A stretch of DNA of 57,973 bases from a virus: positions 1 through 57,973 of the IMG/VR virus record IMGVR_UViG_3300032086_002841, one strand, 5' to 3'. Of this stretch, positions 10,122 to 30,110 are shown piece by piece; position 1 is the first letter of the stretch; each line of letters opens with the position of its first letter. The notes beneath the pieces were generated by a model, which worked only from the letters and a program-made list of their open reading frames with translations, did no database searches and was not told the origin of the DNA. Position numbers and translations under genes: made by a program.

Positions 10122-10862
10122 TTATTTCTTGTTCCGTCTTGTCATATCTCTATATCCACCAGTAAATTTACTTCTTAATTTGAAAGATTCATCATTTATT
10201 GCTTTATGATCTTTTTGTTCAAATTCTGTTACATCAAGTCCAATTTTTTCTCTTTTAAATGGTATAACATGCAAAAATGGATCACCTCTTTTTAATATAG
10301 TGTCACCCTCACTATGCCATATGCTAGGAAAGTTAACTTGATGGAATGTGTCAGTTTCCACGATGCCAGGTATCAAAGTAAAGTCTTTATTAGGATGCAT
10401 CTGTGGTGCTAAGAATAAAGTTGACCAACCTGGAGGTGTCCAAAAAAACCACGGACTTGTAAATTTTACAGGTTTTTTGTAATCTGTTTCGGCAAAAGGA
10501 TATGTAGGTAATTGATCAAAATTATGAAATTCTAAATGACTACTATTAGAATTTATTTGGTTAGTTTCAAAATGAAATACATCTCCTTGCCTTTGAACTA
10601 ACATATCATACCAAAATGGAATTATGAAACCCTCTGTAAAGTAATCAACAACTGCTGGACATTTTTTAATACTATGAGAACTATAATCTCTTAACATTGA
10701 ACCCATTTTAGGAAAAGGTTGAGTATCAAGTCTAGGAACATCTAAACTTAGCTTTGTAAACCACTCTGGTATCATTTGACCTGCTGGTACAGGTGGTGCT
10801 AATTCTACAAGTGGTGCGTCCATTGTAGAAAAACGCATATTTTTTTCTTTTATAAATTTCAT
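10122..10862 (-). CDS. Unnamed phage family, copy 1 (PPGWS protein)
   Basis: 246 residues. Family blocks, in order: LAPPVPAGQMIPEWF, KKCPAVVDYFTEGFIIPFWYD, a WTPPGWSTLFLAP core, LIPGIVETDTFHQVNFPSIWH, and RGDPFLHVIPFKRE. The same blocks occur in the products at 12167-12985 and 29364-30110. I know no function. The conserved His, Asp and Arg pattern and absence of a signal peptide suggest a soluble enzyme or binding protein. Start overlaps the upstream oxygenase stop as ATGA, so the two are co-translated. Confidence 0.6.
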   Translation of the reverse strand: MKFIKEKNMRFSTMDAPLVELAPPVPAGQMIPEWFTKLSLDVPRLDTQPFPKMGSMLRDYSSHSIKKCPAVVDYFTEGFIIPFWYDMLVQRQGDVFHFETNQINSNSSHLEFHNFDQLPTYPFAETDYKKPVKFTSPWFFWTPPGWSTLFLAPQMHPNKDFTLIPGIVETDTFHQVNFPSIWHSEGDTILKRGDPFLHVIPFKREKIGLDVTEFEQKDHKAINDESFKLRSKFTGGYRDMTRRNKK

Positions 10863-11365
10863 ATTTTCTTTTTAAAAAACCAATGATCTGGCTCTGCAAA
10901 ATGCAAGAAAATCATACCAACATTATTCCAATCAGGATTTGGAAATTCAGGTCGCCAATGTTCCTGATCTTCCCCATAAAAAGCTAGAGCTTCATTTTCC
11001 TCTAATTTATATTCAACATCTTCGATTATTAATGGCCATTGAACATTTTGATATAAACAAACATCTAATGTATATGTACAAGCATTAGTGTCTGTGTGCT
11101 TAAACAACTTCGCCTCAGGTCCCTCATAATGAGCTAGCAAAGAGTATGTGTATTCTAATGTATCAGAGTTAAATATTTCTCTTGCTTTATCTACCATTGG
11201 CTCTGTGTATTCTTTTAATTCTGGTAAATCACGATCAGCTATTTCATATCTACCAAATTCTTTAAAATATGGAAATTCTTTATATTTGTAATGCAATAAA
11301 GATTTTAATGTATTAAATGTATGATGATCGAATAGATCCTTAACTAATTTTACTTCTTTCTCCAT
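10859..11365 (-). CDS. 2OG-Fe(II) oxygenase-like protein
   Basis: 168 residues with a double-stranded beta-helix pattern. HTDTNA near residue 91 provides the His-x-Asp metal pair. The distal His is probably in the GEDQEHWRPEFP segment, followed by a beta strand VGMIFLHF. The usual 2-oxoglutarate-binding Arg/Lys after the distal His is not obvious, although an Arg sits in HWRPEF. Likely an Fe(II)/2-oxoglutarate hydroxylase; substrate unknown. Its gene is coupled to the unnamed family member downstream. Confidence 0.6.
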   Translation of the reverse strand: MEKEVKLVKDLFDHHTFNTLKSLLHYKYKEFPYFKEFGRYEIADRDLPELKEYTEPMVDKAREIFNSDTLEYTYSLLAHYEGPEAKLFKHTDTNACTYTLDVCLYQNVQWPLIIEDVEYKLEENEALAFYGEDQEHWRPEFPNPDWNNVGMIFLHFAEPDHWFFKKKI

Positions 11366-12174
11366 GATTTACCTTTCAATAACTTTTTAGGTCGTCTTTC
11401 TAAAGCGTCTGGATATAAAGTATTAGTATCTCGCCTATTTACTGCTGATCCTACAATCATATTCCATCTTTCGCTAAATGTTTCGTTCCACTCTACCCAT
11501 TCTACCTTCACAGGCTTTGAAAATAGTAAATTAAACATAACTGTGTCATGATTAAGTTCTAAAGTATCTTGACTAAGATCAGTCCACTCAAAAGCCCAAG
11601 ACAATCCTCTTGACCATCCGTATATAGGCATAAAACCAGGTACTAATGATATAGGTAAATTTTTACCTGAATTTCTATCTGATGGAATAACATCTAACCA
11701 AACATCTGGATCATCAGTAAAAAACATAAAAGGCATAGTTATCTGCATAACAGGTTTATCAGGACTAGCCCACGCTTCTTTTTCTTCAAGTATAATTTCT
11801 TTAAATGGTCCATGATGTTTAACTGCACCATGATAGTTCGCAGACATACTGTAGCCGTTAAACCTATCTATTTCATCAGCAAATTGATTTTTTGACAAAT
11901 TAACTTTTACATAACTAAAAGGAAAATACATTTCATACATACGATTTCGCATATATTGTGTAGAAACACAACCATTTGGTGCTTTTACAAATTTTCTTGG
12001 CTGACCATAATTTATAATCGGTATTGAACTAGTGTCCTCAATTTCTTTTCCAGGTGAATTAGCTAAAGGTTTGGGTATCGTAAAAGCAACTGTAGGTAAA
12101 TTTCTATTACTTTCTCTAAGTGGTTTACTCCATATTTTGCCATAATCAGGTATTTTTATTGGACATTTACTCAT
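11350..12174 (-). CDS. Uncharacterised protein in the oxygenase cluster
   Basis: Start at ATG 12174, with AGGAG six bases upstream; 274 residues. Features include VPGFMPIYGWSRGLSWAFEW and MPFMFFTDDPDVWLDVIPS. The spacing of aromatic-rich strands loosely resembles the PPGWS family next door, so it may be a distant relative, but the family blocks are not conserved. The last 20 residues are very basic (RRPKKLLKGKSWRKK). Overlaps neighbours at both ends by about 8-16 bp. Confidence 0.5.
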   Translation of the reverse strand: MSKCPIKIPDYGKIWSKPLRESNRNLPTVAFTIPKPLANSPGKEIEDTSSIPIINYGQPRKFVKAPNGCVSTQYMRNRMYEMYFPFSYVKVNLSKNQFADEIDRFNGYSMSANYHGAVKHHGPFKEIILEEKEAWASPDKPVMQITMPFMFFTDDPDVWLDVIPSDRNSGKNLPISLVPGFMPIYGWSRGLSWAFEWTDLSQDTLELNHDTVMFNLLFSKPVKVEWVEWNETFSERWNMIVGSAVNRRDTNTLYPDALERRPKKLLKGKSWRKK

Positions 12175-12985
12175 CAATTACTCCTTCTTGTTTCCATATT
12201 CGTTTATTTTGTTGTGTTAACCATCTATAAAAACCATTTTGCCTAGTTCTTTCGGCAGCCCTAACCTTATTATAATACTTTTCATCAAGCTGATCCATTT
12301 CTGCGACTTGTATTTTTGGTAAAGTTTCTCTTTTAAATGGAATAACCTGTACCAAAGGCATGCCTTGTCTAAATATTTTTTCGCCTGTACCATGATATAA
12401 AAATGGTATATTCATTTGATGATAACTATCTGTTTCTACAATAGATGGTAAAACTTCTATATCTAAATTTCTGTGATACCACGGATCCATAATCATAACT
12501 GACCAACCAGGTGGAGTAATAATATCCCACGGATTATCAAATTTTAAAGCTGTATAAAATGTATGATCCATCATAGGCATACTACCTATTGCCCTAGAGT
12601 CATGAAAAGTTATTGTTTCTTCAAATGCGTGTTTGTTATACCAATTTAAACCTGTACTTTTATCATGATGTATTTTAAGATCTAACCACAACGGAATAAT
12701 ATATCCCTCGTGCATTATATCTTTTACTGTTGGACACTTTTTTAAAGAATTATCTTTATAAGGAACTGTATTCCAACTGTCATCTTTACCCTCGCCATGT
12801 TCTCCATCACGCATTTCTGTCCACTCACGCTGTAAGTTTTTATACCACGCAGGTATAAACTCTTTAGCAGGTCGAGGAGGTGCTAGATCGATATACTCAG
12901 GTTTTTTTGTTAAAAATTTAATAGTATCAAATTCTAATTTATGTTTCTTTTCTTCTAAAAATCTGTTGTACTTTTTCCCCATCAT
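12167..12985 (-). CDS. Unnamed phage family, copy 2 (PPGWS protein)
   Basis: 272 residues with all family blocks: DLAPPRPAKEFIPAWYKNL, KKCPTVKDIMHEGYIIPLWLD, ITPPGWSVMIMDPWYHRNL, VLPSIVETDSYHQMNIPFLYH and QGMPLVQVIPFKRE. It has an extended basic N-terminus (KKYNRFLEEKKHK) and a longer C-terminus than copy 1. It ends by overlapping the next gene. Function unknown; repeated retention of the family in this phage suggests non-redundant targets. Confidence 0.6.
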   Translation of the reverse strand: MMGKKYNRFLEEKKHKLEFDTIKFLTKKPEYIDLAPPRPAKEFIPAWYKNLQREWTEMRDGEHGEGKDDSWNTVPYKDNSLKKCPTVKDIMHEGYIIPLWLDLKIHHDKSTGLNWYNKHAFEETITFHDSRAIGSMPMMDHTFYTALKFDNPWDIITPPGWSVMIMDPWYHRNLDIEVLPSIVETDSYHQMNIPFLYHGTGEKIFRQGMPLVQVIPFKRETLPKIQVAEMDQLDEKYYNKVRAAERTRQNGFYRWLTQQNKRIWKQEGVIDE

Positions 12986-12992
12986 CTACCTG

Positions 12993-13700
12993 TCATTCTA
13001 ACAACAAAGTAGCTGACATCACAGCTCTTAAGTGTTCTTCAGGTTTGTCTGTGACCATTGTTTTATATGTTATTTCATCTCCATCTTCCCAATGGATAAT
13101 TTTTATAGAATTAAAGTTTTCTTTTAAATAAGTTATTACAGTATTTATATTCAAGATCTGATCTGGTTTCCAATCCATAACTACTTTTGTTCCTGCATTA
13201 TTAGACAATGTAGTTTCTGCACCTACAAGAACATCATATTCTTTGCCATTTGCATAAACTATCATTAGATCTATATCAGATAAATTTAAGCTATCAACAG
13301 TTATTACATCTACAGCCTGTGAAGAATCTCCAAACACCATATCTAGTATGCCACCTGATTTATTGTCTTCAAAGAAATACATAGTACCTGTTCCATTTTC
13401 ATCAGAGCATGCTTTGTTGTAGTTTTCAGCAGCATTATAGTTTGCATCTAATATTGCATAGCGATCAGAGTTGGGTTCTATATTTACTGTTTCAACACCA
13501 TCTCCTTCTAATATTCCTGTTGCTACACCACATCCTGCACCTACAATTACAGCTTTTGTAAAGTTAGTTCCGTTATCAACTAGATAAAACTCTAGTGAAG
13601 GATTTATATGACCTAGTGTTGATGCCTTACGATATTCAGATTTATCTGTTTCATCAATATTAATTACTATTCCATTTCTAAAAGTGTGTGATTGTGCCAT
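12993..13700 (-). CDS. FkbM-like SAM-dependent methyltransferase
   Basis: 235 residues. A glycine-rich SAM-binding loop (VIVGAGCGVATGILEGDG) is followed by an acidic strand end (VNIEPNSDRYAI). Later comes the FkbM-type segment VDSLNLSDIDLMIVYANGKEYDVLVGAE, corresponding to the D-x-x-K-x-D-x-E-G-x-E block of the family, with the usual acidic residues partly replaced. FkbM-type enzymes O-methylate sugars or small molecules. With glycosyltransferase and oxygenase genes nearby it could decorate a glycan or virion protein. Confidence 0.6.
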   Translation of the reverse strand: MAQSHTFRNGIVINIDETDKSEYRKASTLGHINPSLEFYLVDNGTNFTKAVIVGAGCGVATGILEGDGVETVNIEPNSDRYAILDANYNAAENYNKACSDENGTGTMYFFEDNKSGGILDMVFGDSSQAVDVITVDSLNLSDIDLMIVYANGKEYDVLVGAETTLSNNAGTKVVMDWKPDQILNINTVITYLKENFNSIKIIHWEDGDEITYKTMVTDKPEEHLRAVMSATLLLE

Positions 13701-13716
13701 GTTTATATCCTACTAC

Positions 13717-14406
13717 CTAAAAACTAATATTTACACCTTCTGGGATATACATTGGTGGTAATCCATCAAAGTCTATTTGGTGACCTAACCATGTAACTAT
13801 AGCGTACTTAGTACCCTCTAAAACAGGCATTGCCTTATGTGAATAAGCGTAATTACTAGGAAACAAAACTAAAGCAGGTTTATCTGGTTTAACCATTTCG
13901 TCAAAGTGACTAAAATAAGTTCCACCACCCTTGTATTCAGTTGGATTTAAAAGTATTAAAGCCGATAAATGTCTAGGATTGTGAGGTGCATAATCACAAT
14001 GAGCTTTATATTCCTGACCACCTTGATACCTTAAAAGTGTATAACCCTCATCAAAGTGAATATTTACTTCATACTTATCACAATACTGCTTTACATAGAT
14101 CTGTAATTTATTAGCTAATAATTCCTGTATATTTTTAAGATCTCTTATGTAATTATCTTTACCATCTTTTATAGCGTCCCTAACTATTCGTGCTTCACCT
14201 GGTAAATTAGCATTTTTACTTATTGGGAATAATTGATTTGTTCTAATATTCCCACCTTTGTGACCTTTTCCAATTCCTGCATCTTCAAAACTCATTTTAA
14301 AATCAGGATCTTTGTCTATGTTTTCTATTGCGTCTATAATCTTTTTTGCCTGATCTTCTGTTAAAAAATCATCATATATCTCAACACAACCCATAACTTG
14401 TTTCAT
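13717..14406 (-). CDS. Prolyl-4-hydroxylase-like 2OG-Fe(II) oxygenase
   Basis: 229 residues, the best oxygenase of the cluster. YQGGQEYKAHCDYAPH supplies the His-x-Asp pair, FPSNYAYSHKAMPV the distal His, and GTKYAIVTWLGHQ the Lys/Arg that binds 2-oxoglutarate. The GGGTYF strand between them is typical of the P4Hc domain. Catalyses Fe(II)/2OG hydroxylation, probably of a protein side chain. A strong AGGAGG site precedes the start, and the gene overlaps the next oxygenase by 4 bp. Confidence 0.85.
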   Translation of the reverse strand: MKQVMGCVEIYDDFLTEDQAKKIIDAIENIDKDPDFKMSFEDAGIGKGHKGGNIRTNQLFPISKNANLPGEARIVRDAIKDGKDNYIRDLKNIQELLANKLQIYVKQYCDKYEVNIHFDEGYTLLRYQGGQEYKAHCDYAPHNPRHLSALILLNPTEYKGGGTYFSHFDEMVKPDKPALVLFPSNYAYSHKAMPVLEGTKYAIVTWLGHQIDFDGLPPMYIPEGVNISF

Positions 14407-15119
14407 AATATTTGCCTCCTTGTTAAATTTTCTGCTGGCACACCATCTAGAAATGAATCTATATCAAATCCACTTGAACATGCAACTAGAAAAGCTGATT
14501 TCCTACCATCTAATAAAGGTGTTGTAGAGTGAGAAAATACAAATGCACTAGGCATTATAACAAGACTTCCTGCTGGTGGTTTATAAGAAGGACTATCAAA
14601 ATAACGAAAATCTAAAGCGCCACCTTTATGATCATCTGTCAAATATGTCAAACAAGTAATCCTCCTTAAAAAAGGTGCGTTCCAAAATCTACCTGTTTCA
14701 GGATTTCTTGTTGATCTATTATCGCCATGATAATTCATGTGCTTAGGTGGTTTATAAGTGATGTATTGATACTGTTCCATCCAATGTATTTCATCCTTTA
14801 CATCAGGATATATTTCACAATATTTATTAATTTTATCTAATGTATTTCTTTGAACTTGAAAAAAAAATTCTACACTTTCTTTTTCACGAAATTCTGTTTC
14901 TGGATCAAATCTTATAGGACCATTTGCATTTCTAACAGTTTCATAATTACCACCTCTATCAAAATCATTATTTTTTATTACAATATCTTTCCATCTATCT
15001 ACTTCTGAGTTCATAATATCTACTACACCATCAGGAACTTCTAAACAATTTTCCCAAGAAATAACACCAGGTACTATTTCCTTGTATTCAACTTCCCTCC
15101 AAAGTTTTTCTAAAACCAT
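14403..15119 (-). CDS. 2OG-Fe(II) oxygenase, second P4H-like copy
   Basis: 238 residues. HMNYHGDNRS holds the His-x-Asp, GGALDFRYFDS is the central strand, VFSHSTTPL holds the distal His, and DGRKSAFLVA the 2OG-binding Arg/Lys. Same fold as the neighbouring gene but only distantly related, so the two probably have separate substrates. The ATG overlaps the upstream stop as TAATG. Confidence 0.8.
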   Translation of the reverse strand: MVLEKLWREVEYKEIVPGVISWENCLEVPDGVVDIMNSEVDRWKDIVIKNNDFDRGGNYETVRNANGPIRFDPETEFREKESVEFFFQVQRNTLDKINKYCEIYPDVKDEIHWMEQYQYITYKPPKHMNYHGDNRSTRNPETGRFWNAPFLRRITCLTYLTDDHKGGALDFRYFDSPSYKPPAGSLVIMPSAFVFSHSTTPLLDGRKSAFLVACSSGFDIDSFLDGVPAENLTRRQIL

Positions 15120-15589
15120 TATTCTTCTTCTTGATCGCTATGGAATACTGATAATTCTGCTTCTTTAAATAATTCACCATTCTTAGTAAAACGCAAGTTA
15201 TACCAACCAACATTTAGTCTGATATGTTCTGTTTCGTAAATTTCTAATCTTTTGTTAAAGTTTAAATTGTGAGATTCTACTTTGTTACTATCTGCTTTAG
15301 GATTTTCGTAATCTTTTTCCCATACTTCTAAAACAAATGTTGGATCTGTTTCAAAAATACCAAAATCGTCTACAAGTCGGTAAATTAAATAATCTGTATC
15401 AGAACAGGTTTGTGGAGTATATATTTCTTGAAATTCTGGTATTTTAAAAGCATGTGCCTCATTTTCATTAATGACATACTTTTGATTGTTATCTGATAAG
15501 CCGTGATGTATTTCTTGGAATTTTCCAAACCATTCATGTTTATAGTCATCTATATTATGATTTTTAGGTACAAAATATACCTTTCTCAT
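15119..15589 (-). CDS. Uncharacterised protein
   Basis: 156 residues, acidic, beta-rich in the second half (FVLEVWEKDYENP, HIRLNVGWYNLRF). No motif I recognise. It is translationally coupled to the oxygenase downstream, which makes it a candidate partner or substrate of that enzyme. The sequence ends in an acidic DQEEE tail. Confidence 0.45.
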   Translation of the reverse strand: MRKVYFVPKNHNIDDYKHEWFGKFQEIHHGLSDNNQKYVINENEAHAFKIPEFQEIYTPQTCSDTDYLIYRLVDDFGIFETDPTFVLEVWEKDYENPKADSNKVESHNLNFNKRLEIYETEHIRLNVGWYNLRFTKNGELFKEAELSVFHSDQEEE

Positions 15590-15607
15590 AATTCCTCCCT
15601 TATTGCT

Positions 15608-16528
15608 TTATACTAAATTAGGTCTGGTTGTAAGTAATTCTTTTAAATAATCTACAGTTGGTCCTAAAACTTCAGACTTTCCAGCTTTGTAAGTTGCTGT
15701 GTCAGCGAGAAAAGCATCTTCATCAAAGTCTGCTGGTACTTCTCCTAACTTATAAAGACTGTTAGCAATAGCTTTGTCGATCATTTGTAGTGCGTCAGCT
15801 TTTTCTACTGCTAAAGCATCTGCGTCTATTGATAATTGCATATCTTCTCCTATAGTGTAAGTTTTACCACATAAGTATAGCATTAAATAACTCATGGTTG
15901 AGTCCATATCTAATGTCATCATTGTCGCAACATTATCTTGAACACTTTGTGGTATTTCTATTGTAGTTGAATTTTTGTAAGTATTGAATATTTTATAATG
16001 CGACCATAAAAGATCTTCACCCTGTTCACCATGTTCTACAGTATCATGTAAAAGATCATCAGATACATTATTTGAATTATTGCCAATAGGTGTTATTTTT
16101 TGAGCTACTATTCCTTGAAAAAAAGTATCTCTGTATAGATATGGTTTATCTTCTTTAACATAAACTACATCATACATATTTTCAGTTAAGGTGAATTTAT
16201 ATCCAGATTCTAAACATAAACCACAAACAGCACCACAAGGAACAGTATTTCCCTCGCAATCTTCTGCATTGTAATTAGTCAAAAAATCTTTTCTACGAAT
16301 AAAAAAATCACAATATTTTGCCCCATTTAGATCAATGTCTGCATAACCAAAACTACCTTCAGAGGTAAATTCAATTTCAGATCTTGGTGCTTCGTGATAA
16401 AAATCTTCATAAGTATTTTCTGGGAATAGCAAATTTGGATCGCCCATGTGTCTACCAGGCATATACCAAAGAGTATAATTGTCGTAGTCTTGATCTTCTC
16501 TACTGTAATAAACTCTGACAGTAGACAT
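15608..16528 (-). CDS. Uncharacterised protein with CBM41-like N-terminus
   Basis: 306 residues. The first 24 (VRVYYSREDQDYDNYTLWYM) resemble the opening strand of pullulanase-type CBM41 starch-binding modules (V-R-x-H/Y-Y-x-R-x-D-x-D-Y-x-x-W/Y). A Cys-rich patch follows (CEGNTVPCGAVCGLCLES). The C-terminal third is helical (MIDKAIANSLYKLGEVPADFDED). It lies between the adhesin genes and the modification cluster. A glycan-binding virion component is a reasonable guess; the CBM similarity is by eye only. Confidence 0.4.
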   Translation of the reverse strand: MSTVRVYYSREDQDYDNYTLWYMPGRHMGDPNLLFPENTYEDFYHEAPRSEIEFTSEGSFGYADIDLNGAKYCDFFIRRKDFLTNYNAEDCEGNTVPCGAVCGLCLESGYKFTLTENMYDVVYVKEDKPYLYRDTFFQGIVAQKITPIGNNSNNVSDDLLHDTVEHGEQGEDLLWSHYKIFNTYKNSTTIEIPQSVQDNVATMMTLDMDSTMSYLMLYLCGKTYTIGEDMQLSIDADALAVEKADALQMIDKAIANSLYKLGEVPADFDEDAFLADTATYKAGKSEVLGPTVDYLKELLTTRPNLV

Positions 16529-16530
16529 TA

Positions 16531-17211
16531 TTATACCTTAAATGTTTTGACTGTTCCGTCAGCATATCCTGTGACATCTGTCAACACACCTGTTAATGGT
16601 ATATCCTGAGAAATTATAAAAATTACTCCACCACCTGTTGTGGTTTCTCCTGTAGCCTTAATAGTTCCATATCCTTGTATTTTTCTAGCACATAAAACTA
16701 CAATTCCTCCACCATGACTTACGCTATCTCCTGCACCACCTTGTAATGCGACAGGAGTTGTTTGACCACCATGTACAATTACTCCTCCAACTGCTATATC
16801 CGGATGATTAAAGTATTCTGCACCTACTGTAGGCGCTGTAGCTGTATATCCATTACCATTTCCACCAAGAGAGTTTGTGACTGCTGCACTCGCGCCACCT
16901 CTAAGAGTTCCTGATGTAGAAACACCACCAATTCTTCCTATTGTTGTATCTGATTGGTTAGTGGAAGTAGCTGCCATAGCTAATGTATTTCTTACAAAAA
17001 CTCTATATCCTGCTGTGTCTAATGCAATTCCTGGATCTATTGTCAAATTGTTATAGTGCATATCTCTTGTTAAAGATGTATTAGAACTTATTTGTACATT
17101 TCCATCCATACCAGATCCATAAATAGAATCAGGAATAACATCAAATTCGGTATAATCTATCTCTGGCTCTCCGACCTCTCTTATATTTCTTCTATAATAT
17201 CTTCTGCCCAT
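16531..17211 (-). CDS. Glycine-rich adhesin-like protein
   Basis: 226 residues. After a basic start (MGRRYYRR) comes a block (DGNVQISSNTSLTRDMHYNN, then LDTAGYRVFVRNTL) that is repeated in the larger neighbour at 17213-18547. A Gly/Ser/Thr-rich body follows with GGGIVVLCARKIQGYGTI. These are features of phage tail-tip adhesins built on beta-solenoid or polyglycine folds. Paralogous to its downstream neighbour. Confidence 0.6.
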   Translation of the reverse strand: MGRRYYRRNIREVGEPEIDYTEFDVIPDSIYGSGMDGNVQISSNTSLTRDMHYNNLTIDPGIALDTAGYRVFVRNTLAMAATSTNQSDTTIGRIGGVSTSGTLRGGASAAVTNSLGGNGNGYTATAPTVGAEYFNHPDIAVGGVIVHGGQTTPVALQGGAGDSVSHGGGIVVLCARKIQGYGTIKATGETTTGGGVIFIISQDIPLTGVLTDVTGYADGTVKTFKV

Positions 17212-17212
17212 A

Positions 17213-18547
17213 TTAAGCCCCCGGATCCGTGTCTGTTGCTGCGATATTGTATACTGTCACAACAGATCCTGCTGTAGCAGTTCCAGATCCACCTGTTCCT
17301 GCCGCTGCTGCCAATGTTAAACCACTTGGCAATGGTTTTGTTCCTGTAATTAAAATTAATGCGCCACCACCAGCATTAAAAGCTGTTGATGCAGTTCCTT
17401 TAGTTCCCCCTGCACCACCTGGGTGATAGTTTGTTGGGTTAGCAGCATAGTTAGTTGCGTTAGTATTTCCACCATAAGAATATCCATAAGAATATCCATA
17501 AGAATAGTTATTACCTGGATATGAATAATTATTACCAGGATGTGTATTTGTATTACCTGGATATGAATATTGATTACCAGGATGTGTGTGTGCATAATGG
17601 TAATGGTAAAAACCACCAGCAAAGTTGTTTATCGGTGGTCCTGGATGCCAATGGTAATGTGTATGAGATGAAGATGGATTAGATCCATAATTTGTTGGAT
17701 TTGATCCATAGTTAGTAGGATTAGATCCATAATTTGTTGGATTTGATCCATAGTTTGCACCTGAGTTTGATCCATAATTAGTAGGGTTTGTATTACCAGG
17801 ATAAGAATAATTATTTCCAGGTGTTTGTGCGTCTGGCGCTGGTGCGCCATCTGTTCCATCAGAACTAGCTGTTGAATCATCTGCGTCAGCTCTAATTGTT
17901 CCGTCACCTGAAATTGTTTTTGCTACAACTAAGACCACTCCACCACCTACTGCGCCTGTGCCTGCTGTCGCAGCATTACCATCTGCGCCTCGACCACCTC
18001 CTGCACCAACTGTTTGATAATTAGCCCAGTTAGTGTCAGATCCATCAGTTCCTGAGGTTGCATTTGCTGTAATTGTTCCTTCAGTTCCACCAGATCCACC
18101 ACTTAAAAATTTAAAAGAGCTTGTAGCTTGATCAAACTTTTGTCCTGCTAAAGCAACTGATAGATTAAAGAAATCAGATTCACCATCAAAAAAAGTATTA
18201 CCTGCGTGTTCTTCATCTGTTTGTTCTGAAGATCTACCACCTAGAGTGTCTGTAGCGTCTATACCTTTACCAAATCCACCTTTTAATGTTCCAGTATTTG
18301 TTTTGTTTGAATATCTACCAATTTTAGAAGTTGAGTCTGTAAATGTTAAAGTTCCTCTAACAAATACACGATAACCATTAGTATCTAATGTAACACCAGA
18401 GTTTATTGTAAGGTCGTTGTAATACATATCTCTAGCAAGAGTTGTATTAGATGCTAATGTGACATCACCATCTTGACCAAACCCATATATTTCATCACCA
18501 CCTAGTCTGTCCAAAAAAATTGGCTCAGGTATTTGTATTTCAGGCAT
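17213..18547 (-). CDS. Glycine-rich adhesin with NYGSNP and SYPGN repeats
   Basis: Start at ATG 18547, which overlaps the upstream stop as TAATG; 444 residues (the longer frame is rejected). The N-terminal block DGDVTLASNTTLARDMYYND is shared with the neighbour. After a Gly-rich body come tandem NPTNYGS units, a His/Tyr/Trp patch (HTHYHWHPGPPINN), and Y-S-Y-P-G-N repeats. A Gly-rich end follows. Low-complexity Tyr/Asn/Gly/His repeats are typical of host-binding tip adhesins that vary quickly. Likely a receptor-binding virion protein. Confidence 0.65.
   Translation of the reverse strand: MPEIQIPEPIFLDRLGGDEIYGFGQDGDVTLASNTTLARDMYYNDLTINSGVTLDTNGYRVFVRGTLTFTDSTSKIGRYSNKTNTGTLKGGFGKGIDATDTLGGRSSEQTDEEHAGNTFFDGESDFFNLSVALAGQKFDQATSSFKFLSGGSGGTEGTITANATSGTDGSDTNWANYQTVGAGGGRGADGNAATAGTGAVGGGVVLVVAKTISGDGTIRADADDSTASSDGTDGAPAPDAQTPGNNYSYPGNTNPTNYGSNSGANYGSNPTNYGSNPTNYGSNPTNYGSNPSSSHTHYHWHPGPPINNFAGGFYHYHYAHTHPGNQYSYPGNTNTHPGNNYSYPGNNYSYGYSYGYSYGGNTNATNYAANPTNYHPGGAGGTKGTASTAFNAGGGALILITGTKPLPSGLTLAAAAGTGGSGTATAGSVVTVYNIAATDTDPGA
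17676..17790 (-). repeat. 21-bp tandem repeat inside the adhesin gene
   Basis: About five degenerate copies of a 21-bp unit (GGATTAGATCCATAATTTGTT in plus-strand form) encode the NPTNYGS series. In-frame units of 21 bp allow slip-strand expansion or loss without breaking the protein. Confidence 0.8.
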
Positions 18548-18876
18548 TAGCTTACCTCTACACCAGAAACATGTATATTGACTGAAGTTGCTGCTGAACA
18601 TTTTGCAGCGACTGAAGCAGATGCCGGTATAACCATAGCCAAGTCAATGACTGAGGTTGTATTAGCCGAAACAGTAATATCGCCAAATACGATATGTTGA
18701 TCTCCTGTTGTGTCCCCTGAAGGAATAACTTTGATTTCTACTGTTCTGTCAGTTGCTGTATAGTTCGACAACATTATTTGCTTTATGATACATTTATTAG
18801 AATTGCTGAAAACTTGTGTTTCAGATGTTCCTAATGCTGTGACCTCTGCTAACTCTGCTGCATTATATACTGCCAT
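18547..18876 (-). CDS. Small beta-sandwich-like virion protein, copy A
   Basis: 109 residues of alternating beta strands (IKQIMLSNYTATDRTVEIKV, then IVFGDITVSANTTSVIDLAM). Same length and strand order as the product of 20404-20733, so the two are probably paralogues. Such small proteins in fibre regions often act as fibre connectors or decoration proteins. Exact role unknown. Confidence 0.5.
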   Translation of the reverse strand: MAVYNAAELAEVTALGTSETQVFSNSNKCIIKQIMLSNYTATDRTVEIKVIPSGDTTGDQHIVFGDITVSANTTSVIDLAMVIPASASVAAKCSAATSVNIHVSGVEVS

Positions 18877-18884
18877 TTATTCTC

Positions 18885-19340
18885 CTATAATCCCATCCAG
18901 ACCAACGCCTCATTAGTAAAGAGTTGAACCGGATTAATTTTCTTCATTGTTGTATCTGAATTATCATATAAGATAACCAGATCATTATCTTCATCTACAT
19001 CTACAGATGTTCCATCTGCAAGTCTTGTAGCATCTAAAGCTATGTCAACTGCACCTGATGTTGCACCACCTGATATACCTGAAGTTGTACTTGTTGTCAC
19101 ACCTGTGACATCACCAATATCTAATTGTAACCAAGCACTTGAAGTTCTTACTTCTAAACGATCATCATCAGTATTGTATATAACCATACCTTCAGTAGCA
19201 GTAGTTATTGCATCTCTTTGCACTTCTGTATATGCAGGTATTAGTGGACCACCATCAACATGACCATCTTGAAATTCTTTTAGACCTGTACTATCAGATC
19301 CTGTCATAGCTACTCTAATTAGTTGTTGTCTATCAGCCAT
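18885..19340 (-). CDS. Short fibre-like protein
   Basis: 151 residues. It opens with RQQLIRVAMTGSDSTGLKEF and includes EGMVIYNTDDDRLEVRTSSAW, a block found in many phage fibre and neck-appendage proteins (MIYNTD-x-x-x-L-E-V-x-x-x-x-x-W). The rest is Thr/Asp/Gly-rich and likely beta-helical. A related ending block (GGEQIFNTTTSKVNVYDGSS) closes the giant fibre gene at 20735. Confidence 0.55.
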   Translation of the reverse strand: MADRQQLIRVAMTGSDSTGLKEFQDGHVDGGPLIPAYTEVQRDAITTATEGMVIYNTDDDRLEVRTSSAWLQLDIGDVTGVTTSTTSGISGGATSGAVDIALDATRLADGTSVDVDEDNDLVILYDNSDTTMKKINPVQLFTNEALVWMGL

Positions 19341-19342
19341 AA

Positions 19343-20733: not shown

Positions 20734-20734
20734 A

Positions 20735-23700: not shown

Positions 23701-26700
23701 CTGAAGATCTAGCTCTTGCGTCTGTGTAGTATAAGTTAGAAGAACCTTCAGTTAAATCGTCTGTGTCACTCGCAGATAGTGATGTTCCTTGTACAGAAAC
23801 TACTGCATCTCCACCCATTCCTGAGTGTGCAGAACAATAATAATAAAGTGTGTCAGGCGTAGCTGCATTGACAATTATTTGAGTATAAGCGCCTGAAGAA
23901 CCTGGAGATCCGTTTGTTGTGACATTGGTTGTGTAAGAAGATCCTGAATTATGAGTACCATCTTTAGTTGTAGATAGTACTAATGGATGTCCTCCGTTAG
24001 AACCATCACTTTGATCAAATCTGTATGTTATTCCAGGTATTAATTGAATACTTGCAGCAGTTTCTCCATCTAAGTGATATTTATTACCACTTACATTCGC
24101 TACTGTAACTGCAAATTCAATGATTGGAGTGTTATCTTCAAAATTTATTGTTTTATTGGTTATTGTGTCTGTGCTAGTCGGAGTAAAATCTGCTGTCAAA
24201 GATCCTGAAGAATAAGTTAGTCCAGATCCAATTTCATTTTCACCAATTAACTCAACCCAATTACCTGCATGTGCATAGTAGGCTCTGCCTGTTGCGTGAA
24301 CATGAGCAAACATACCATGATAAGTTGATGCACTTGGTAAGTCACCTACATTTGAATATATGTTTGCAAATAGGACTTTTTGTCCATTCATATCTAGATC
24401 AGAAGTATTATCGAAAGCTATTGTGCCTGAGCTAAAGCTGATGTTTGTACCACCACTAAAACTTGATAGTGTAGTAAATGCTGATGTAGAATTATCGTAA
24501 TTAGCTAAATCATTATCTACTACAAAGTCAAAATTATTATTTGTGTCATCATAAGTTACAGTTATAAGAGTTTGTGTACCCATTGTTAGTGCAGTACCTA
24601 AAGCATCCTGCGCTCTTTCATTTGTAAAGTAAAGATTTGTAGAACCCTCAGACAAATCATCTGTATCATTATTTGATAGATTATCTTCAGTTGCTGCAAT
24701 AGTAAGTGTTCCTGCTGTGTCGTCATAAGTTAAAGTTATGTTTGATCCTGCTGTTAATAAAGCGTTTACTTGATCATCAACTCTTTCATTTGTGAAATAT
24801 AAATTAGTCGATCCTTCAGTTAAATCATCTGTTGTAGCAGCAGCAATCCTAGCGTCTGCTCTCGCATCTGTATAATATAAGTTTGTTCCTTCGGTTAAAT
24901 CACCAGTATCTTTTGTTCCTAATCTTGTATCAAATCTAGCGTCTGTATAATAAAGGTTTGTACCTTCTGATAGATCAGAGGTAGATTTACCTGTAAAAGC
25001 TGTGTCAAATCTTGCTGTAGTGTAATAAAGGTTAGTTCCTTCTGATAAATCTGAAGTACTGTGGTTAGCAATACTAGATACTGTACCTGTAACATCACCG
25101 GTTAAGTCACCTTCAATGTTTGCTAATAATGTACCTAATGCATAACCTGTTCCGGTTATGTCTACAGTTGTAGTAGGTTCACTTTGCAACCCATGAAACA
25201 ATCTAAACTTGTCAGATTGTGATGCGTCCCAAACTAAACCACCATATTTTGTTGTAGAAGATTGTACATACTTACCATAAAAACCAAAATCAGCAGAGTT
25301 TCCTGTGTTATTATCAGCATATCTAACTAGTGGATCATCAATAGTGACTGTAGTTGAATTAACTGTAGTAGTAGTTCCACTAACTGTTAAATCTCCTGTA
25401 ATAGTTGCATCACCATCAATGCTTATTGCACTAGAAGTTATGTCGTCAGATGTTAAAGTTCCGTCTACTTGAACATTATTAAATTGAACATTGTCAGTAG
25501 TTCCTACTGCTTGCCCAATACTAAATTCACCTGAAGAGTAAGAAATTCCTGTGCCTGCTGATAAATGTGCTTGAACTTCACTTGCGCTAGGTCCTGTATA
25601 AGTTATAACACCTGTTGATGAGTTATAAGCTAGTGATCCATCTCCACCTGAGTCTGTGACTGAAACAGATGCTCTTGCTCTACTATCTGTGTAATAAAGA
25701 TTACTTGAACCTTCTGTTAAATTGTCAGTTGTTTTTGTTGCTAATCTTGTATCAAACCTTGTATCGGTATAGTAAAGGTTCGTTCCTTCTGATAAATCAC
25801 TTGTACTAAATCCTGATAGAGATACAGTTGCGTCTATTGCACCATCATTTGCGTCATCGTATGTAAAAGATATTCCTGTATGACTACCATTAGTAACTAA
25901 TTGATCTCCAACAACATCTTGTACTCTTTCTGTTGTATGGTAAAGATTTGTACCTTCTGCTAAATCTGTAGTTGTATTATTTGATAAATCATCTTCAGTA
26001 GCAGCGATAGTAAGAGTTCCACTTGTGTCATCATAAGTCAAGGTTATGTTAGAACCTGCTGTTAATAAGTTTGCAACTCTATCATCAACTCTTTCGTCAG
26101 TAAAGTAAAGATTTGTTCCTTCGCTTAAATCACTTGTAGATTTACCTGAGAAAGCAGAATCAAACCTTGCAGTTGTATAGAAAAGATTAGAACCTTCTGT
26201 TATATCCCCTGTATCAAATTCTGAAAAATCTAGAGCTAATGTTAAAGTGTTAGCAGTATCATCATAGGTAGAGGAAAGACCTGTACCACCTACGACTAAT
26301 CCATTTACTATATCTTCAAGGGAATCTTCAACTTCAGTTAAATCAACAGATAAAGTTAATTGATTGTTTGTATCATCGTATGATATATCGATACCACTTG
26401 TTGTGGAATCAATAAGCAAAGCACCTACTCTGTCATCTACTCTTTCATTTGTGAAGTATAAGTTAGTGCTACCCTCTGATAAATTATCAGTATCTTTTGT
26501 AGCTAGTCGAGTATCAAAAGCACTATTAACCCTTGCATCTGTGTAATAAAGGTTAGTACTGCCTTCTGATAGGTCGTCTGTATCGAATGATGACATTGTG
26601 ACAGCTACAGTAGGTGTTTGTGCCTCACCTGAAGTAGCGCTTACAGATATACCTGTTCCTGCAACTAAATTTTGTACAAAGTCACCAACTGTATCAGTTG

Positions 26701-27676
26701 CTAAATCTATTGGATCATTTACCCAAGAAGATCCGTTATATCTTAAAACATCTCCATTAGCTAAACTTGTAAAACCTACATCACTTAGATCTGCGATACT
26801 TGCTGCTGTAATCCTGGCATCAGCTCTTGCATTTGTATAATATAAATTAGTAGAACCTTCTGTAATGCTGTCCGTATCAAACTCAGTAAAATCTACTGAA
26901 CCTGTAATAGTCCCAGATCCTTCTGTAAGTGTTATTCCTGTGCCACCTGTAAATGTGACTGTGCCACCTAATGCAACATCGGTTGAGTTAGATCCATCTG
27001 TGACTGTTATAGAACTATTACTAAATGCAGAGTTTGGAATATTAGTAAATGTGTTAGATGCACCACTAAGTGTTTTGTTTGTAAGTGTATCTGTAGAGGT
27101 TCTTGTTATTATTTCGTCATATGACTGATTCTCTCCTAAAACCCAACGATTTGTAGATACATCATAAAATATTCTTGCATCATCAGTATCTGAAGTTTCT
27201 ACAATAATACCTGCATCAACTTCGCTGTTACCTGTGTTAAGTTTTACGAAAGCATCATCAACTACAATGACTTCTGCTGTTGTATTTAAAAACTCTCCCT
27301 GAACATCAAGATTGCCTTGAATTGTAACTGATCCTGAGGTAGTCAAACCTGTAAATGTTGGGCTATCTCCTGTACCTAAACCTAAACTATCTCTTGCAGT
27401 TGATCCTGACTCAACAATCCATTGTGTACCATCTGATACAATAAACGAACCATCTGAATGTACTAGATTTCCTAATGTTGTTAAATCAACATCATATGCT
27501 TGTACATTAGAACCAATCTGTAAACCTAGACCAATTCTAAGATCTGCTAAAGAAGAGTAAGATCCACCTGTACCACCATCAGATAAACCTATAAAATCTG
27601 CTGATTGAAATTCAGCAAAACCATCAGGATTACCATCCCCATCATAATTCAGCCTTATTGGATCTTTTTCTGCCAT
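20735..27676 (-). CDS. Giant repetitive tail fibre
   Basis: 2313 residues, the largest gene here. I count 19 copies of an EG-S/T-NLYYT-x-x-R unit (for example SEGSTNLYYTDARVNSAF), usually about 50-100 residues apart, which suggests a long segmented shaft. Larger duplicated modules carry TVSGDLTVSGTTTTVNTETI. Between about 23795 and 24140 lies a cupredoxin-like domain. The C-terminus has a TTSKVNVYDGSSW block and ends YFILGD. Typical of long side fibres of marine phages. The ATG overlaps the stop of the upstream fibre-like gene. Confidence 0.8.
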   Translation of the reverse strand: MAEKDPIRLNYDGDGNPDGFAEFQSADFIGLSDGGTGGSYSSLADLRIGLGLQIGSNVQAYDVDLTTLGNLVHSDGSFIVSDGTQWIVESGSTARDSLGLGTGDSPTFTGLTTSGSVTIQGNLDVQGEFLNTTAEVIVVDDAFVKLNTGNSEVDAGIIVETSDTDDARIFYDVSTNRWVLGENQSYDEIITRTSTDTLTNKTLSGASNTFTNIPNSAFSNSSITVTDGSNSTDVALGGTVTFTGGTGITLTEGSGTITGSVDFTEFDTDSITEGSTNLYYTNARADARITAASIADLSDVGFTSLANGDVLRYNGSSWVNDPIDLATDTVGDFVQNLVAGTGISVSATSGEAQTPTVAVTMSSFDTDDLSEGSTNLYYTDARVNSAFDTRLATKDTDNLSEGSTNLYFTNERVDDRVGALLIDSTTSGIDISYDDTNNQLTLSVDLTEVEDSLEDIVNGLVVGGTGLSSTYDDTANTLTLALDFSEFDTGDITEGSNLFYTTARFDSAFSGKSTSDLSEGTNLYFTDERVDDRVANLLTAGSNITLTYDDTSGTLTIAATEDDLSNNTTTDLAEGTNLYHTTERVQDVVGDQLVTNGSHTGISFTYDDANDGAIDATVSLSGFSTSDLSEGTNLYYTDTRFDTRLATKTTDNLTEGSSNLYYTDSRARASVSVTDSGGDGSLAYNSSTGVITYTGPSASEVQAHLSAGTGISYSSGEFSIGQAVGTTDNVQFNNVQVDGTLTSDDITSSAISIDGDATITGDLTVSGTTTTVNSTTVTIDDPLVRYADNNTGNSADFGFYGKYVQSSTTKYGGLVWDASQSDKFRLFHGLQSEPTTTVDITGTGYALGTLLANIEGDLTGDVTGTVSSIANHSTSDLSEGTNLYYTTARFDTAFTGKSTSDLSEGTNLYYTDARFDTRLGTKDTGDLTEGTNLYYTDARADARIAAATTDDLTEGSTNLYFTNERVDDQVNALLTAGSNITLTYDDTAGTLTIAATEDNLSNNDTDDLSEGSTNLYFTNERAQDALGTALTMGTQTLITVTYDDTNNNFDFVVDNDLANYDNSTSAFTTLSSFSGGTNISFSSGTIAFDNTSDLDMNGQKVLFANIYSNVGDLPSASTYHGMFAHVHATGRAYYAHAGNWVELIGENEIGSGLTYSSGSLTADFTPTSTDTITNKTINFEDNTPIIEFAVTVANVSGNKYHLDGETAASIQLIPGITYRFDQSDGSNGGHPLVLSTTKDGTHNSGSSYTTNVTTNGSPGSSGAYTQIIVNAATPDTLYYYCSAHSGMGGDAVVSVQGTSLSASDTDDLTEGSSNLYYTDARARSSVSVTDSGGDGSLSYNSSTGVITYTGPSASEVQAHITAGTGVTISSGEVAIGQAVGTTSDVTFNDLTVSGDLTVSGTTTTVNTETINLADNIILLNSNATGSASENAGIEIERGSDTNVTLIWEETDNKWTVGSERFDAGSIYSTFTGNLTGNVTGTVSDVSNHDTDDISEGSTNLYYTNARFDTQLGTKDTDNLTEGSTNLYFTNTRADARISAASVGDLSDVDITTSAPTSGQALVWNATNSEFEPGDVTSSLTGLSDTTISSLATNEILAYNGSAWVNTDTPIFGSGTRLYASGSNTYFGPHLDFYTDSDSPAAGGTDIGGAGDTLGTINFYGNSTGSGNGGDFKYATISGRIDALGSKGALVITTSSSNVAEFTDDGMHLHAGRTIKFEGSSLNGFETKLTVANPTADRTVTFKNESGTVAYTADIPSFTDSLAEGGTNLYFTNARADARIAAADINDLNDVLFSDPTSSDDAKVISYSDTSGGFVLSSLAGLSGSGEVNTASNANVAGIGVFKQKTGEDLEFRGINAGSAKITVTNDTANDEIDIDFGTVSIADLSDVITTSVSDGQALVYSSSNSRFEPGDVTATLSGLTDTTITSPSNGQLIKYNGSAFVNFTADTDDIGEGSTNLYYTDARVNTAFDTRLAAKDTDDLSEGTTNLYYTDSRVQTKIDSYVTGGTGVSISSGAISIGQAVATTSDVTFNDLTVSGNLTVSGTTTTVNTETINLADNQIVLNSNATGSASENGGIEIERGDDANKTLIWDESIDKWTVGSETFVAGTFEGNATGITTGAITTLTEDTSPAETDLIVVYDGSAGALKKVQKSNFAASATFSVNDEMPLTLADGSSDPIQFTNVGTSATDLDLTLADGTVDPINITGTSNSATTFRDGDTDTFVRVESSNSDNDEIEMHTAGSERLKIDATAADFSVPVKLPNLTTTQRDALTGMTGGEQIFNTTTSKVNVYDGSSWIEVGGGSSGLANYFILGD

Positions 27677-28857
27677 TATTCACCCATGTTTATATCTTGT
27701 GTTTCTGTGCTACCATTTGCTAATGTTGATGTCAAAATCAAAGACTTTCCGTCTGTAGTCGGAGGCATTACAATCCTAGATAGTGTTGATCCATCAGATT
27801 GCAAAACTTCAACAGCTCTTGTACTCATAGCTACTGTAGAACCTCCACCATTAACTGATGCTGTAGTAGTTACAGGTATAAAATGATTTTTTAAAGGAAC
27901 ACCACTACCTGAACCTCCACTAAGCACTAATGGCATTTTACCACTATGACTATGAGTTATCGGTATCTTGGCATTCAAAGTAACAGATCTAGCACTTGAG
28001 TCAGTAATAATATCTAACTTACCATCTCTTTCAACTCTAGTAATTGAAGGACTTGCTGTGTCTAAACTTAAAGTATCTGTTGTACTAGCAGCTGTAATAG
28101 TAGTCTGATTTGGTGCAGAAACACTCTTAAATATATCTTGAGTGCCTGTACCTGATGATGTGGATGCTATTGTGATTTGATCGTTGTTAGCATCTGCGCT
28201 AAGGGTAATTCCTGAACCTGCAATAAAAGTTAAAGTATCTGTTTCTCCGTCTGCCTCTAAATTTGATCCACTAGCAGATCCAGATCCTGAAGTTACTGCA
28301 AATGTTGAAAATGCATTAGCAGCAGTATTTGTATTTGATATTGTTATTTTTTTAGGACTAGAACTAGTATTAGTTGATATTCCAATACCAGATCCTGCCT
28401 CAAATTCTATATTTTCAGATGTAGAACTAGCAGATATTGTAGTTGATCCATTTACGACTATTCCTGCAAAGGCATATTGAGTATTATCTATAGTTGTCCA
28501 AGAAATATTACCTAATCCATCTGTTGTAAGAACTTGACCTGAATCACCATCTGCACCTGCTATTCGTAATTTACCTGATAGGATATCTACTCTTTGTGAG
28601 CTGTCAATTTTTAAAGCCTCTACGCTAGCAGTACCAAGTTTAATGTATGTGCTTGACGCAGTAGTACCTATAGATAAATTACCATCAGATACAAGTGTTT
28701 GACCATCCATGTATAGATTGTCATTTAAAGAAACTATTTGTACTGTGGCATTCGAGAGAGTGTAGCCCTCTCCTGAGGAAGATGAGTCAAAGAAGTCGTC
28801 TTGAGTAGTGAGATTATTTATCTCTAGTGTTGATCTACTGTGAGTTGTTAAGGACAT
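27676..28857 (-). CDS. Tail fibre-associated protein
   Basis: 393 residues of Thr/Ser/Gly-rich beta repeats, with ASSTYIKLGTASVEALKIDS and GDSGQVLTTDGLGNISWTT, the latter a widespread phage fibre block (DGQVLxTDGxGxLxW). AGGAGA lies six bases before the ATG. It ends by overlapping the start of the giant fibre. Probably the proximal or connecting segment of the same fibre. Confidence 0.65.
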   Translation of the reverse strand: MSLTTHSRSTLEINNLTTQDDFFDSSSSGEGYTLSNATVQIVSLNDNLYMDGQTLVSDGNLSIGTTASSTYIKLGTASVEALKIDSSQRVDILSGKLRIAGADGDSGQVLTTDGLGNISWTTIDNTQYAFAGIVVNGSTTISASSTSENIEFEAGSGIGISTNTSSSPKKITISNTNTAANAFSTFAVTSGSGSASGSNLEADGETDTLTFIAGSGITLSADANNDQITIASTSSGTGTQDIFKSVSAPNQTTITAASTTDTLSLDTASPSITRVERDGKLDIITDSSARSVTLNAKIPITHSHSGKMPLVLSGGSGSGVPLKNHFIPVTTTASVNGGGSTVAMSTRAVEVLQSDGSTLSRIVMPPTTDGKSLILTSTLANGSTETQDINMGE

Positions 28858-29095
28858 TTCTTATCTCCTGTATGTCGTATGTACCTCCCAAATCTTCATA
28901 AGCATCTGTTAGTATTTTTAATGCTCGTTTTCTCTCATCTACTTCATACTTCCATTCTGCATAATCAGGGTGATCTTCAGAATATGAAATTACAAGCAGA
29001 GAAAATAATGTCCCCTCGCCATCAAAAATTTGATTGAGGAGTAGTCTTTTCTTTGCTTTATCGTCAAATATTTTAAACTCATGTGATTCTGGCAT
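28835..29095 (-). CDS. Small protein of the MPxxxEF group, copy 1
   Basis: 86 residues, helical and charged: MPESHEFKIFDDKAKKRLL ... YEVDERKRALKILTDAYEDLGGTYD. The start (MP-x3-EF/Y) and the LGGTYD/LGGTFD ending block are shared with 30107-30322; the start is also similar in 29151-29342. They probably form one family of small fibre-region proteins, perhaps assembly chaperones. Overlaps the next gene by 23 bp. Confidence 0.45.
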   Translation of the reverse strand: MPESHEFKIFDDKAKKRLLLNQIFDGEGTLFSLLVISYSEDHPDYAEWKYEVDERKRALKILTDAYEDLGGTYDIQEIRNVLNNSQ

Positions 29096-29150
29096 AATCT
29101 CCCTTAATACTTTAATAATACTTATTTAATTAATAATTTAAGGTAATTGA

Positions 29151-29342
29151 CTAACCTTCAAGCTCTGTTAGTTTAGCTTTTAGATCTGTAATTCTTGCTG
29201 TGACTTCAGCTATTTCTGCATCATGAACACCATCAGTATTTGATAGTTCCATTTCAAATATTCTCTCTTCTTCATTCTTAATTCTTGCTTGAACAAAGGA
29301 TATTTGATCATCATTTGATAAGTATTCGTATGTATAAGGCAT
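29151..29342 (-). CDS. Small coiled-coil protein, MPxxxEF group copy 2
   Basis: 63 residues: MPYTYEYLSNDDQISFVQAR, then continuous helix with heptads (AEIAEVTARITDLKAKLTELEG). Resembles the other two small proteins of this stretch at its start. A role as a fibre chaperone or trimerisation factor is possible but unproven. Confidence 0.45.
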   Translation of the reverse strand: MPYTYEYLSNDDQISFVQARIKNEEERIFEMELSNTDGVHDAEIAEVTARITDLKAKLTELEG

Positions 29343-29363
29343 AACTAAATACTACCTACCTTT

Positions 29364-30110
29364 TTAAAATCTTTGAGTAATTGATCTGTATGCGTTTTTA
29401 AATTTAGTAGAAAGCATATTTTTTTGTGCAGTATCTTCATATACTTGCTTTTTGCTCATTTGCCCTACATCTAAGTTGAAATTTTCTCTTTTAAATGGAA
29501 TAACCTGTAAAAAAGGAGTTCCTCTATCTATAATTAAATCTTTTGTTGTGTGAATTATTGTAGGAAAATTAACATGATGATATTTGTCAGTTTCTACAAT
29601 TCCTGGTAGCACAGTAAATCTTTTTTCAAACTGGTAAGTAGGTGTCATAAACATTACTGAATATCCTGGTGGTGTATATATTCGCCAAGGATTTACAAAC
29701 TTCACACCTTCAGGAAAATCTGCTTTTCTCAAATCCCAATTATAAATTTGATTATTAGGATGAAACTCTATTCCATAAGGAAAATTTTTGTTATCCCATT
29801 CAAGTTCATTCTTATTTCTTTGCAGTAGGTAATCGCACCACATAGGAATAATAAATCCTTCAGTTATAAGATCTATAATAGCTGGACATCTTTTGACTGT
29901 ACCTTGACTCCATTTTTTTGATGTTTCACCAGTCTTACCAAATTTATTAGGATAACCATTTGGATTAGGTGGGGATTGTATGTCATCATCCATACTTTTA
30001 AACCATTTAGGTAAAAAGTAATTAGATTTTTGAACAGGGGCAGATATTTCAAGACCAGCAACATCGGTCTTAAATTCTATAAATTGTTTTCCTCCCAAAG
30101 AAAATTTCAA
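29364..30110 (-). CDS. Unnamed phage family, copy 3 (PPGWS protein)
   Basis: 248 residues with the family blocks SNYFLPKWFKSM, KRCPAIIDLITEGFIIPMWCD, YTPPGYSVMFMTPTYQFEK, VLPGIVETDKYHHVNFPTIIH and RGTPFLQVIPFKRE. It lies 16 kb from copies 1 and 2 and between two small coiled-coil genes. The start is a TTG whose codon overlaps the upstream stop (ATTGA), with GGTGGAA upstream. Position inside the fibre cluster ties the family to fibre or surface functions. Confidence 0.6.
   Translation of the reverse strand: MKFSLGGKQFIEFKTDVAGLEISAPVQKSNYFLPKWFKSMDDDIQSPPNPNGYPNKFGKTGETSKKWSQGTVKRCPAIIDLITEGFIIPMWCDYLLQRNKNELEWDNKNFPYGIEFHPNNQIYNWDLRKADFPEGVKFVNPWRIYTPPGYSVMFMTPTYQFEKRFTVLPGIVETDKYHHVNFPTIIHTTKDLIIDRGTPFLQVIPFKRENFNLDVGQMSKKQVYEDTAQKNMLSTKFKNAYRSITQRF

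Follow-up and report, generated by a model that had tools for sequence, protein, structure and literature searches.

DUF6065-like paralogs of a marine phage have a predicted dUTPase-type fold lacking two of its motifs and neighbor 2-oxoglutarate oxygenase and fibre genes

Cyanophages encode 2-oxoglutarate (2OG) oxygenases and tryptophan (Trp) halogenases, among them VirX1, which is trimeric and combines a large, open active site with a broad aromatic substrate scope (PMC8407142). Reviews have interpreted the cyanophage 2OG oxygenases and VirX1 in terms of DNA repair, nitrogen signalling or antibiotic defence (PMC3037559, PMC2984593), and our literature search found no established natural substrate for either. 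Here we examined three genes of one protein family on the 57,973-nucleotide DNA of a marine phage (IMG/VR virus record IMGVR_UViG_3300032086_002841, positions 1 to 57,973; this whole stretch is called the window). The family is already catalogued, as phrog_7084 and as DUF6065, and the fold type that we assign to it is a known one. The fold assignment itself, the motif loss, the controlled linkage to 2OG oxygenases, the overlap with the VirX1 gene and the domain fusions reported below were described in no paper found by the literature search, which returned no mention of DUF6065 and no paper linking DUF6065, halogenase and fibres.

Judged by their sequences, the three copies (paralogs 1 to 3 in Table 1, all on the minus strand) are true paralogs. 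Pairwise BLASTP alignments covered almost the whole length and gave identities of 39% (E 1e-58), 34% (2e-41) and 33% (1e-49), far above chance. Five sequence blocks, described as common to the copies in the initial annotation, were all in register, but their wording varied: TPPGWS reads TPPGYS in paralog 3, and LPGIVETD reads LPSIVETD in paralog 2 and IPGIVETD in paralog 1. In a 57-sequence tree, the copies fell into separate clades (27, 18 and 9 rows; support 99/98, 100/97 and 100/100), each with relatives from other contigs, indicating that the triplication predates this virus group; some relatives carried a further tandem copy. The family had been called unnamed, but the three copies matched the phrog_7084 profile at full length (E 5e-55, 1.2e-54 and 4.7e-69), as did 52 of 53 members of a broader family set. 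With the Pfam profile DUF6065 (PF19541) they scored 22.8, 25.7 and 22.6 bits against a curated cut-off of 26.6, and 53 of the 57 close viral relatives matched at E <= 0.01. We therefore class the window copies as DUF6065-like, 1–4 bits below the Pfam cut-off.

An AlphaFold2 model of paralog 3, built from 57 viral sequences, reached a predicted local distance difference test score (pLDDT) of 85.7. Structure prediction and fold search, which the initial annotation had suggested as a check, pointed to a dUTPase-like fold: all 50 Foldseek matches listed in the PDB were dUTPases or dCTP deaminases (best E 5.9e-4, probability 1.00, target TM-score up to 0.61), and in the BFVD viral structure library uncharacterised phage proteins came first, followed by dUTPases. 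Because the structural match was moderate, the fold was also checked by sequence. A broad profile of 53 diverse members was searched against 177,635 PDB sequences and gave five matches below E 10, all of them dUTPases, all at motifs 3–4 and none individually significant; among them was Wsv112, the dUTPase of white spot syndrome virus. Searching the PDB sequences with one copy or with a profile of close relatives yielded nothing useful, so that only the broad profile indicated dUTPases, and the three copies had no PF00692 match at E <= 1. Profile-profile comparison with a set of 18 bacterial dUTPases and two viral dCTP deaminases gave P 0.0014, with motifs 2–4 (TPPG, GIV[DE] and ..Q.I) in register. 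Taken together, the predicted structure and these alignments suggest that the family has a dUTPase-type beta-clip fold.

The catalytic motifs of that fold were only partly kept. The motif 1 Asp (Asp93) was found in 44 of 53 members (the column being assigned by eye, not via profile alignment) and the motif 4 Gln in 41 of 53. At the motif 3 position there was Asp in 33, Glu in 15, His in 3 and another residue in 2 of the 53 members (Asp/Glu in 48), the window copies having Glu. Motif 2 Arg-Ser (PRSG or GRSS) occurred in just 3 of 323 DUF6065 sequences, with no consensus Arg or Ser in the aligned columns, versus 18 of 20 true dUTPases and dCTP deaminases; the Gly-rich arm of motif 5 was present in 0 of 323 versus 17 of 20. 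Conserved positions new to the family were Cys75 (53/53), His117 (50/53) and Arg208 (52/53), along with Trp36 and Tyr241. Since motifs 2 and 5 are lost, the sequences imply that these proteins should not act as dUTPases despite the fold. A confident match to a known enzyme or virion family of unrelated role was named beforehand as the finding that would refute a role in virion or surface modification; a known enzyme fold was indeed found, but its phosphate-handling motifs are gone, which leaves that suggestion standing as it was framed.

We surveyed the neighbourhoods of a non-redundant set (<60% identity) of 73 viral DUF6065 genes, each flanked by 4 kb or more in both directions. A 2OG oxygenase gene lay within three genes of 44 of them, a Trp halogenase gene of 17 and another DUF6065 copy of 26, and 123 of the 125 2OG genes within five genes were on the same strand as DUF6065. 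As a position control, PF13640 and DUF6065 genes were located along entire contigs, and the oxygenase positions were then rotated 5000 times. PF13640 was within 5 kb of DUF6065 in 31 of the 35 contigs encoding it, against 10.1 expected, and 0 of 5000 rotations reached 31, the P values being nominal since the contigs are related to one another. Outside the cyanophage-type group, the count was 12 of 14 contigs against 4.6 expected. The tie to 2OG oxygenases, proposed from the window alone, thus held in unrelated viruses. A Pfam search of 80 DUF6065 neighbours in these lineages gave 18 matches to PF13640 and 8 to PF13759; other neighbours were glycosyltransferases (N-acetylglucosamine [GlcNAc], PLOD-type and GT25), an FkbM methyltransferase and a carbamoyltransferase. 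Where a nearby 2OG gene was lacking, the neighbours included tail collar, Mtd_N and fn3 domains, one P450, one Trp halogenase, cupins and ribonucleotide reductase. Viruses carried up to six DUF6065 copies. A 92-kb IMG/VR contig (G342, with locus L411) had six copies and zero PF13640 genes. The window itself has a GlcNAc-type glycosyltransferase gene (PF11397, E 2.6e-14) at 1508–2500, and PF11397 occurred twice among DUF6065 neighbours in other viruses.

In the window, an operon spanning 15589 to 9862 runs in the order second PF13640 oxygenase, first PF13640 oxygenase, FkbM-like methyltransferase, paralog 2, protein X, small 2OG-like protein, paralog 1 and ferredoxin. Paralog 1 overlaps the small 2OG gene by 4 bases (ATGA), and the gene for protein X overlaps the small 2OG gene by 16 bases and paralog 2 by 11. 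Paralog 3 lies apart from the operon in the fibre region, between a small open reading frame (ORF) and the tail-tip/S74 gene, with gaps of 268 and 211 bases. Of the gene overlaps described for the copies, that with a 2OG gene was therefore borne out, but those with fibre genes were not.

Similar arrangements recurred in other viruses. In Syn9, Syn10, S-RIM44, P-TIM40, S-CREM1 and Sf-FP1, fibre-region genes were followed by one or two Trp halogenases, DUF6065 and then 2OG oxygenases; in Sf-FP1 the order was tail fibres, halogenase, DUF6065 and oxygenases. The Syn10 gene that overlaps DUF6065 encodes VirX1 (PDB 6qgm, 1271 bits). The richest module found, in Synechococcus phage S-CREM1 (5007–14486 of locus L181), consisted of a collagen-like gene, a Trp halogenase, DUF6065 and an uninterrupted run of nine 2OG/JmjC genes, in that order. 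HfxHF1_475, the DUF6065 gene of HF1, stood three genes away from HfxHF1_490, a fibre/receptor-binding gene; the product of the latter has been described as a typical tail fibre that varies in step with host range (PMC7230728). Fibre or receptor-binding genes were often near DUF6065, also in haloviruses without oxygenases, and the fibre tie noted in the window accordingly recurred across lineages.

Bacterial contigs (GC-rich) were scanned by profile search over all ORFs. Of 289 alphaproteobacterial genomes sampled, 34 had a DUF6065 score above the family cut-off, and the domain was fused to a Cupin_8/JmjC domain at three loci (L260, L262 and L266) and to SapC at one (L265). N-terminal extensions at three further loci (L271, L284 and L285) were considered as fusions; they had no Pfam match, are probably read-through frames and were not counted. 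In two DUF6065-positive alphaproteobacteria (G188 and G284), roughly 200 bases separated a SapC gene from a Trp halogenase gene. These two genomes had 12–16 Trp halogenase matches each, several in tandem and one beside SapC in each. By adjacency, overlap and fusion alike, the same partners, namely JmjC/2OG enzymes, Trp halogenases, SapC and DUF6065, recur in cells and phages.

We tentatively propose, at somewhat under an even chance, that the family is a divergent dUTPase-fold partner of enzymes of oxidative tailoring, serving as their adaptor or substrate-binding subunit, with virion fibres as the probable target. The PPGWS proteins, so called from the block above, would be a branch of the dUTPase/dCTP deaminase fold stripped of its triphosphate-handling motifs. 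Their partner enzymes would be Fe(II)/2OG hydroxylases in the window phage, flavin halogenases and 2OG oxygenases in cyanophages, and JmjC/Cupin_8 hydroxylases in bacteria. The adaptor or substrate-binding subunit, probably trimeric, would bring a target to the oxidising or halogenating enzyme; in phages, a neighbouring gene for a trimeric tail fibre or receptor-binding protein would most likely supply this target, and the three paralogs may serve different enzymes or targets. Three roles in virion or surface modification had been offered by the initial annotation: substrate, adaptor and enzyme. Tentatively, the best fit is an adaptor or a substrate-binding partner; a substrate role is the least likely, given that bacterial genomes also have the domain fused to hydroxylases. 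A wider version, possible but doubtful, is that tailed bacterial and archaeal viruses and alphaproteobacteria recruited a nucleotide-enzyme fold for the subunit that presents substrates in a general system of oxidative protein modification (2OG or JmjC hydroxylases and flavin halogenases), by which phages would hydroxylate or halogenate their own receptor-binding fibres. Several observations weigh against the adaptor reading. The Foldseek match had a query TM-score of about 0.3, with only two PDB matches below 1e-3 among those listed; 10 of the 45 viral genomes and contigs checked, haloviruses among them, were free of PF13640; stand-alone bacterial copies had no coherent neighbourhood, no family recurring beyond 3 of 89 proteins; and in haloviruses and S-RIM4, ribonucleotide reductase or thymidylate synthase was among the DUF6065 neighbours, which would fit nucleotide metabolism.

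The last of these points leads to a nucleotide enzyme, that is, a divergent dUTPase/dCTP deaminase-like nucleoside triphosphate hydrolase with altered specificity that supplies or cleans the deoxynucleoside triphosphates of the phage. The predicted fold, the mostly retained motif 1 Asp, motif 3 acid and motif 4 Gln, and the annotation of the S-CREM1 copy as 'triphosphate nucleotidohydrolase' are also in its favour. We nevertheless consider it unlikely, as motifs 2 and 5 are lost throughout, some members have His in place of the motif 3 acid, single viruses carry as many as six copies, and the domain is fused to hydroxylase and SapC domains. Moreover, HF1 and HRTV-5 encode a genuine dCTP deaminase in addition. 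These were the only 2 of 16 DUF6065-positive viral records with a separate dUTPase or dCTP deaminase, and the idea that DUF6065 replaces a missing dUTPase found no clear support. A catalytic role of another kind, in which Cys75, His117, Arg208 and the motif 3 acid form a new active site in a modifying (or second) enzyme whose step on a small molecule or side chain precedes or follows that of the oxygenase, would explain why Cys75 is invariant and His117 and Arg208 nearly so across phages, archaeal viruses and bacteria. The same residues could be structural, however, and no chemistry is known for this residue set on a dUTPase fold, making such an enzyme distinctly improbable.

The neighbourhood could also be read without any chemistry. 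Known dUTPases are trimers and fibres likewise, which supports a role in virion structure or assembly (as a trimeric fibre cap, an adaptor or a fibre chaperone), where nearness to oxygenases would reflect nothing more than a shared position in the fibre region. Fibre and receptor-binding genes are close by in many lineages, including those lacking 2OG oxygenases. Against this stand the presence of the domain in alphaproteobacterial genomes and its fusion there to JmjC and SapC domains, as well as gene overlaps on the same strand that specifically involve oxygenases and halogenases. In addition, the protein was not reported among the four major virion bands of HF2 (PMC7230728), for which only the VP1 and VP3 locus tags were compared. 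We therefore regard a purely structural role as unlikely too, and retain the adaptor or substrate-binding partner as the tentative reading.

The coordinates of the features in the window are given in Table 1. The small 2OG-like protein had no Pfam match and only a weak match to phrog_2954 (a family named ferrochelatase), but profile search relates it to annotated cyanophage 2OG proteins. The ferredoxin is a possible electron donor. The repetitive fibre-like protein, which had no Pfam match, is a candidate modification target; the Gly-rich tip-like protein, whose gene contains 21-base DNA repeats at 17498–17583 and 17675–17757, is a plausible target of the hydroxylases.

Table 1. Features of the window (aa, amino acids).
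Feature	Coordinates	Strand	Basis or remark
DUF6065/phrog_7084 paralog 1, 246 aa, predicted dUTPase-fold protein	10122..10862	-	ORF reading, profile matches
Small 2OG-Fe(II) oxygenase-like protein, 168 aa	10859..11365	-	HTD...H...R in sequence
Protein X, 275 aa, TTG start	11350..12177	-	Plausible fold-level relation to DUF6065
DUF6065/phrog_7084 paralog 2, 272 aa	12167..12985	-	ORF reading, profile matches
FkbM-type methyltransferase-like protein, same operon	12993..13700	-	phrog_8156 E 5e-15; TIGR01444 E 1e-8, slightly below its cut-off
2OG-Fe(II) oxygenase PF13640 (first)	13717..14406	-	PF13640 E 5e-14
2OG-Fe(II) oxygenase PF13640 (second), 4-base overlap with the first	14403..15119	-	PF13640 E 1e-6
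Single 4Fe-4S ferredoxin, downstream operon end	9862..10107	-	PF13459 E 1e-19
DUF6065/phrog_7084 paralog 3, 248 aa, TTG start	29364..30110	-	Fibre region; copy used for modelling
Tail-tip/fibre protein, 1354 aa, C-terminal Peptidase_S74 chaperone domain, upstream of paralog 3	30322..34386	-	PF13884 E 9e-7, PF09327 E 7e-6
Repetitive fibre-like protein, 2313 aa	20735..27676	-	Direct sequence reading
Gly-rich fibre-tip-like protein, tandem Pro/Tyr/Asn/His-rich repeats (NPTNYGS, HPGNNYSY)	17213..18601	-	

Protein X, encoded between paralog 2 and the small 2OG-like protein, is a conserved protein of this virus group (29 loci) and had been put forward as a possible distant relative of the three copies. 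BLAST against the copies showed no sequence similarity (E 0.43), hhalign against DUF6065 profiles showed no profile similarity (probability 0.1–0.2%), and profile comparison with dUTPases gave nothing. Its model was only fair (pLDDT 64.9); six of the top seven BFVD matches of this model were uncharacterised proteins also matched by DUF6065 (probability 1.00), with dUTPases lower. A distant relationship to DUF6065 at the fold level only is thus plausible from the models. The gene starts with TTG and is three bases longer than first annotated (11350–12174).

Elsewhere in the window, a WhiB transcription factor gene at 44072–44362 suggests an actinobacterial host. An AIPR-like protein at 197–1408 (PF10592, exactly at the 25-bit cut-off) belongs to a family named for abortive-infection phage resistance. 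The C5 cytosine DNA methylase at 55713–57311 has a long insert and an overlapping 187-aa ORF in another frame (56486–57049), possibly a frameshift or artefact.

A predicted fold, key residues and a partner list are now attached to a family present in hundreds of viral contigs. If the wider version of the proposal is true, VirX1 and the many cyanophage 2OG oxygenases would gain their natural substrate. A conserved partner with a predicted dUTPase fold, encoded between enzyme and fibre genes and fused to hydroxylases in bacteria, also makes it a testable question whether phage fibres are chemically modified and brought to these enzymes by DUF6065.

As catalogued, DUF6065 and phrog_7084 are both unannotated, with no fold or function on either label in the libraries searched. 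The family resembles the trimeric dUTPases and dCTP deaminases (PF00692 and PF22769) in its predicted fold and in the PPG loop, motif 3 and motif 4 in register, but differs from them in lacking motif 2 Arg-Ser, motif 5 and any PF00692 or PF22769 match, and in having an extra N-terminal segment with the invariant Cys and extra C-terminal helices. The VirX1 module is alike in that a DUF6065 relative adjoins and overlaps VirX1, with 2OG oxygenases in the same module, whereas the window phage has no Trp halogenase beside its copies, only 2OG oxygenases, and DUF6065 is itself not a halogenase. Compared with prolyl 4-hydroxylase-type 2OG oxygenases acting on collagen-like proteins, DUF6065 would be a partner and not the hydroxylase, and any hydroxylation in these phages is putative; the likeness is that the nearest solved relatives of the first PF13640 oxygenase of the window are prolyl 4-hydroxylases (PDB 5iax, 3itq and 5hv0; E 2e-5) and that the S-CREM1 module has its own collagen-like gene.

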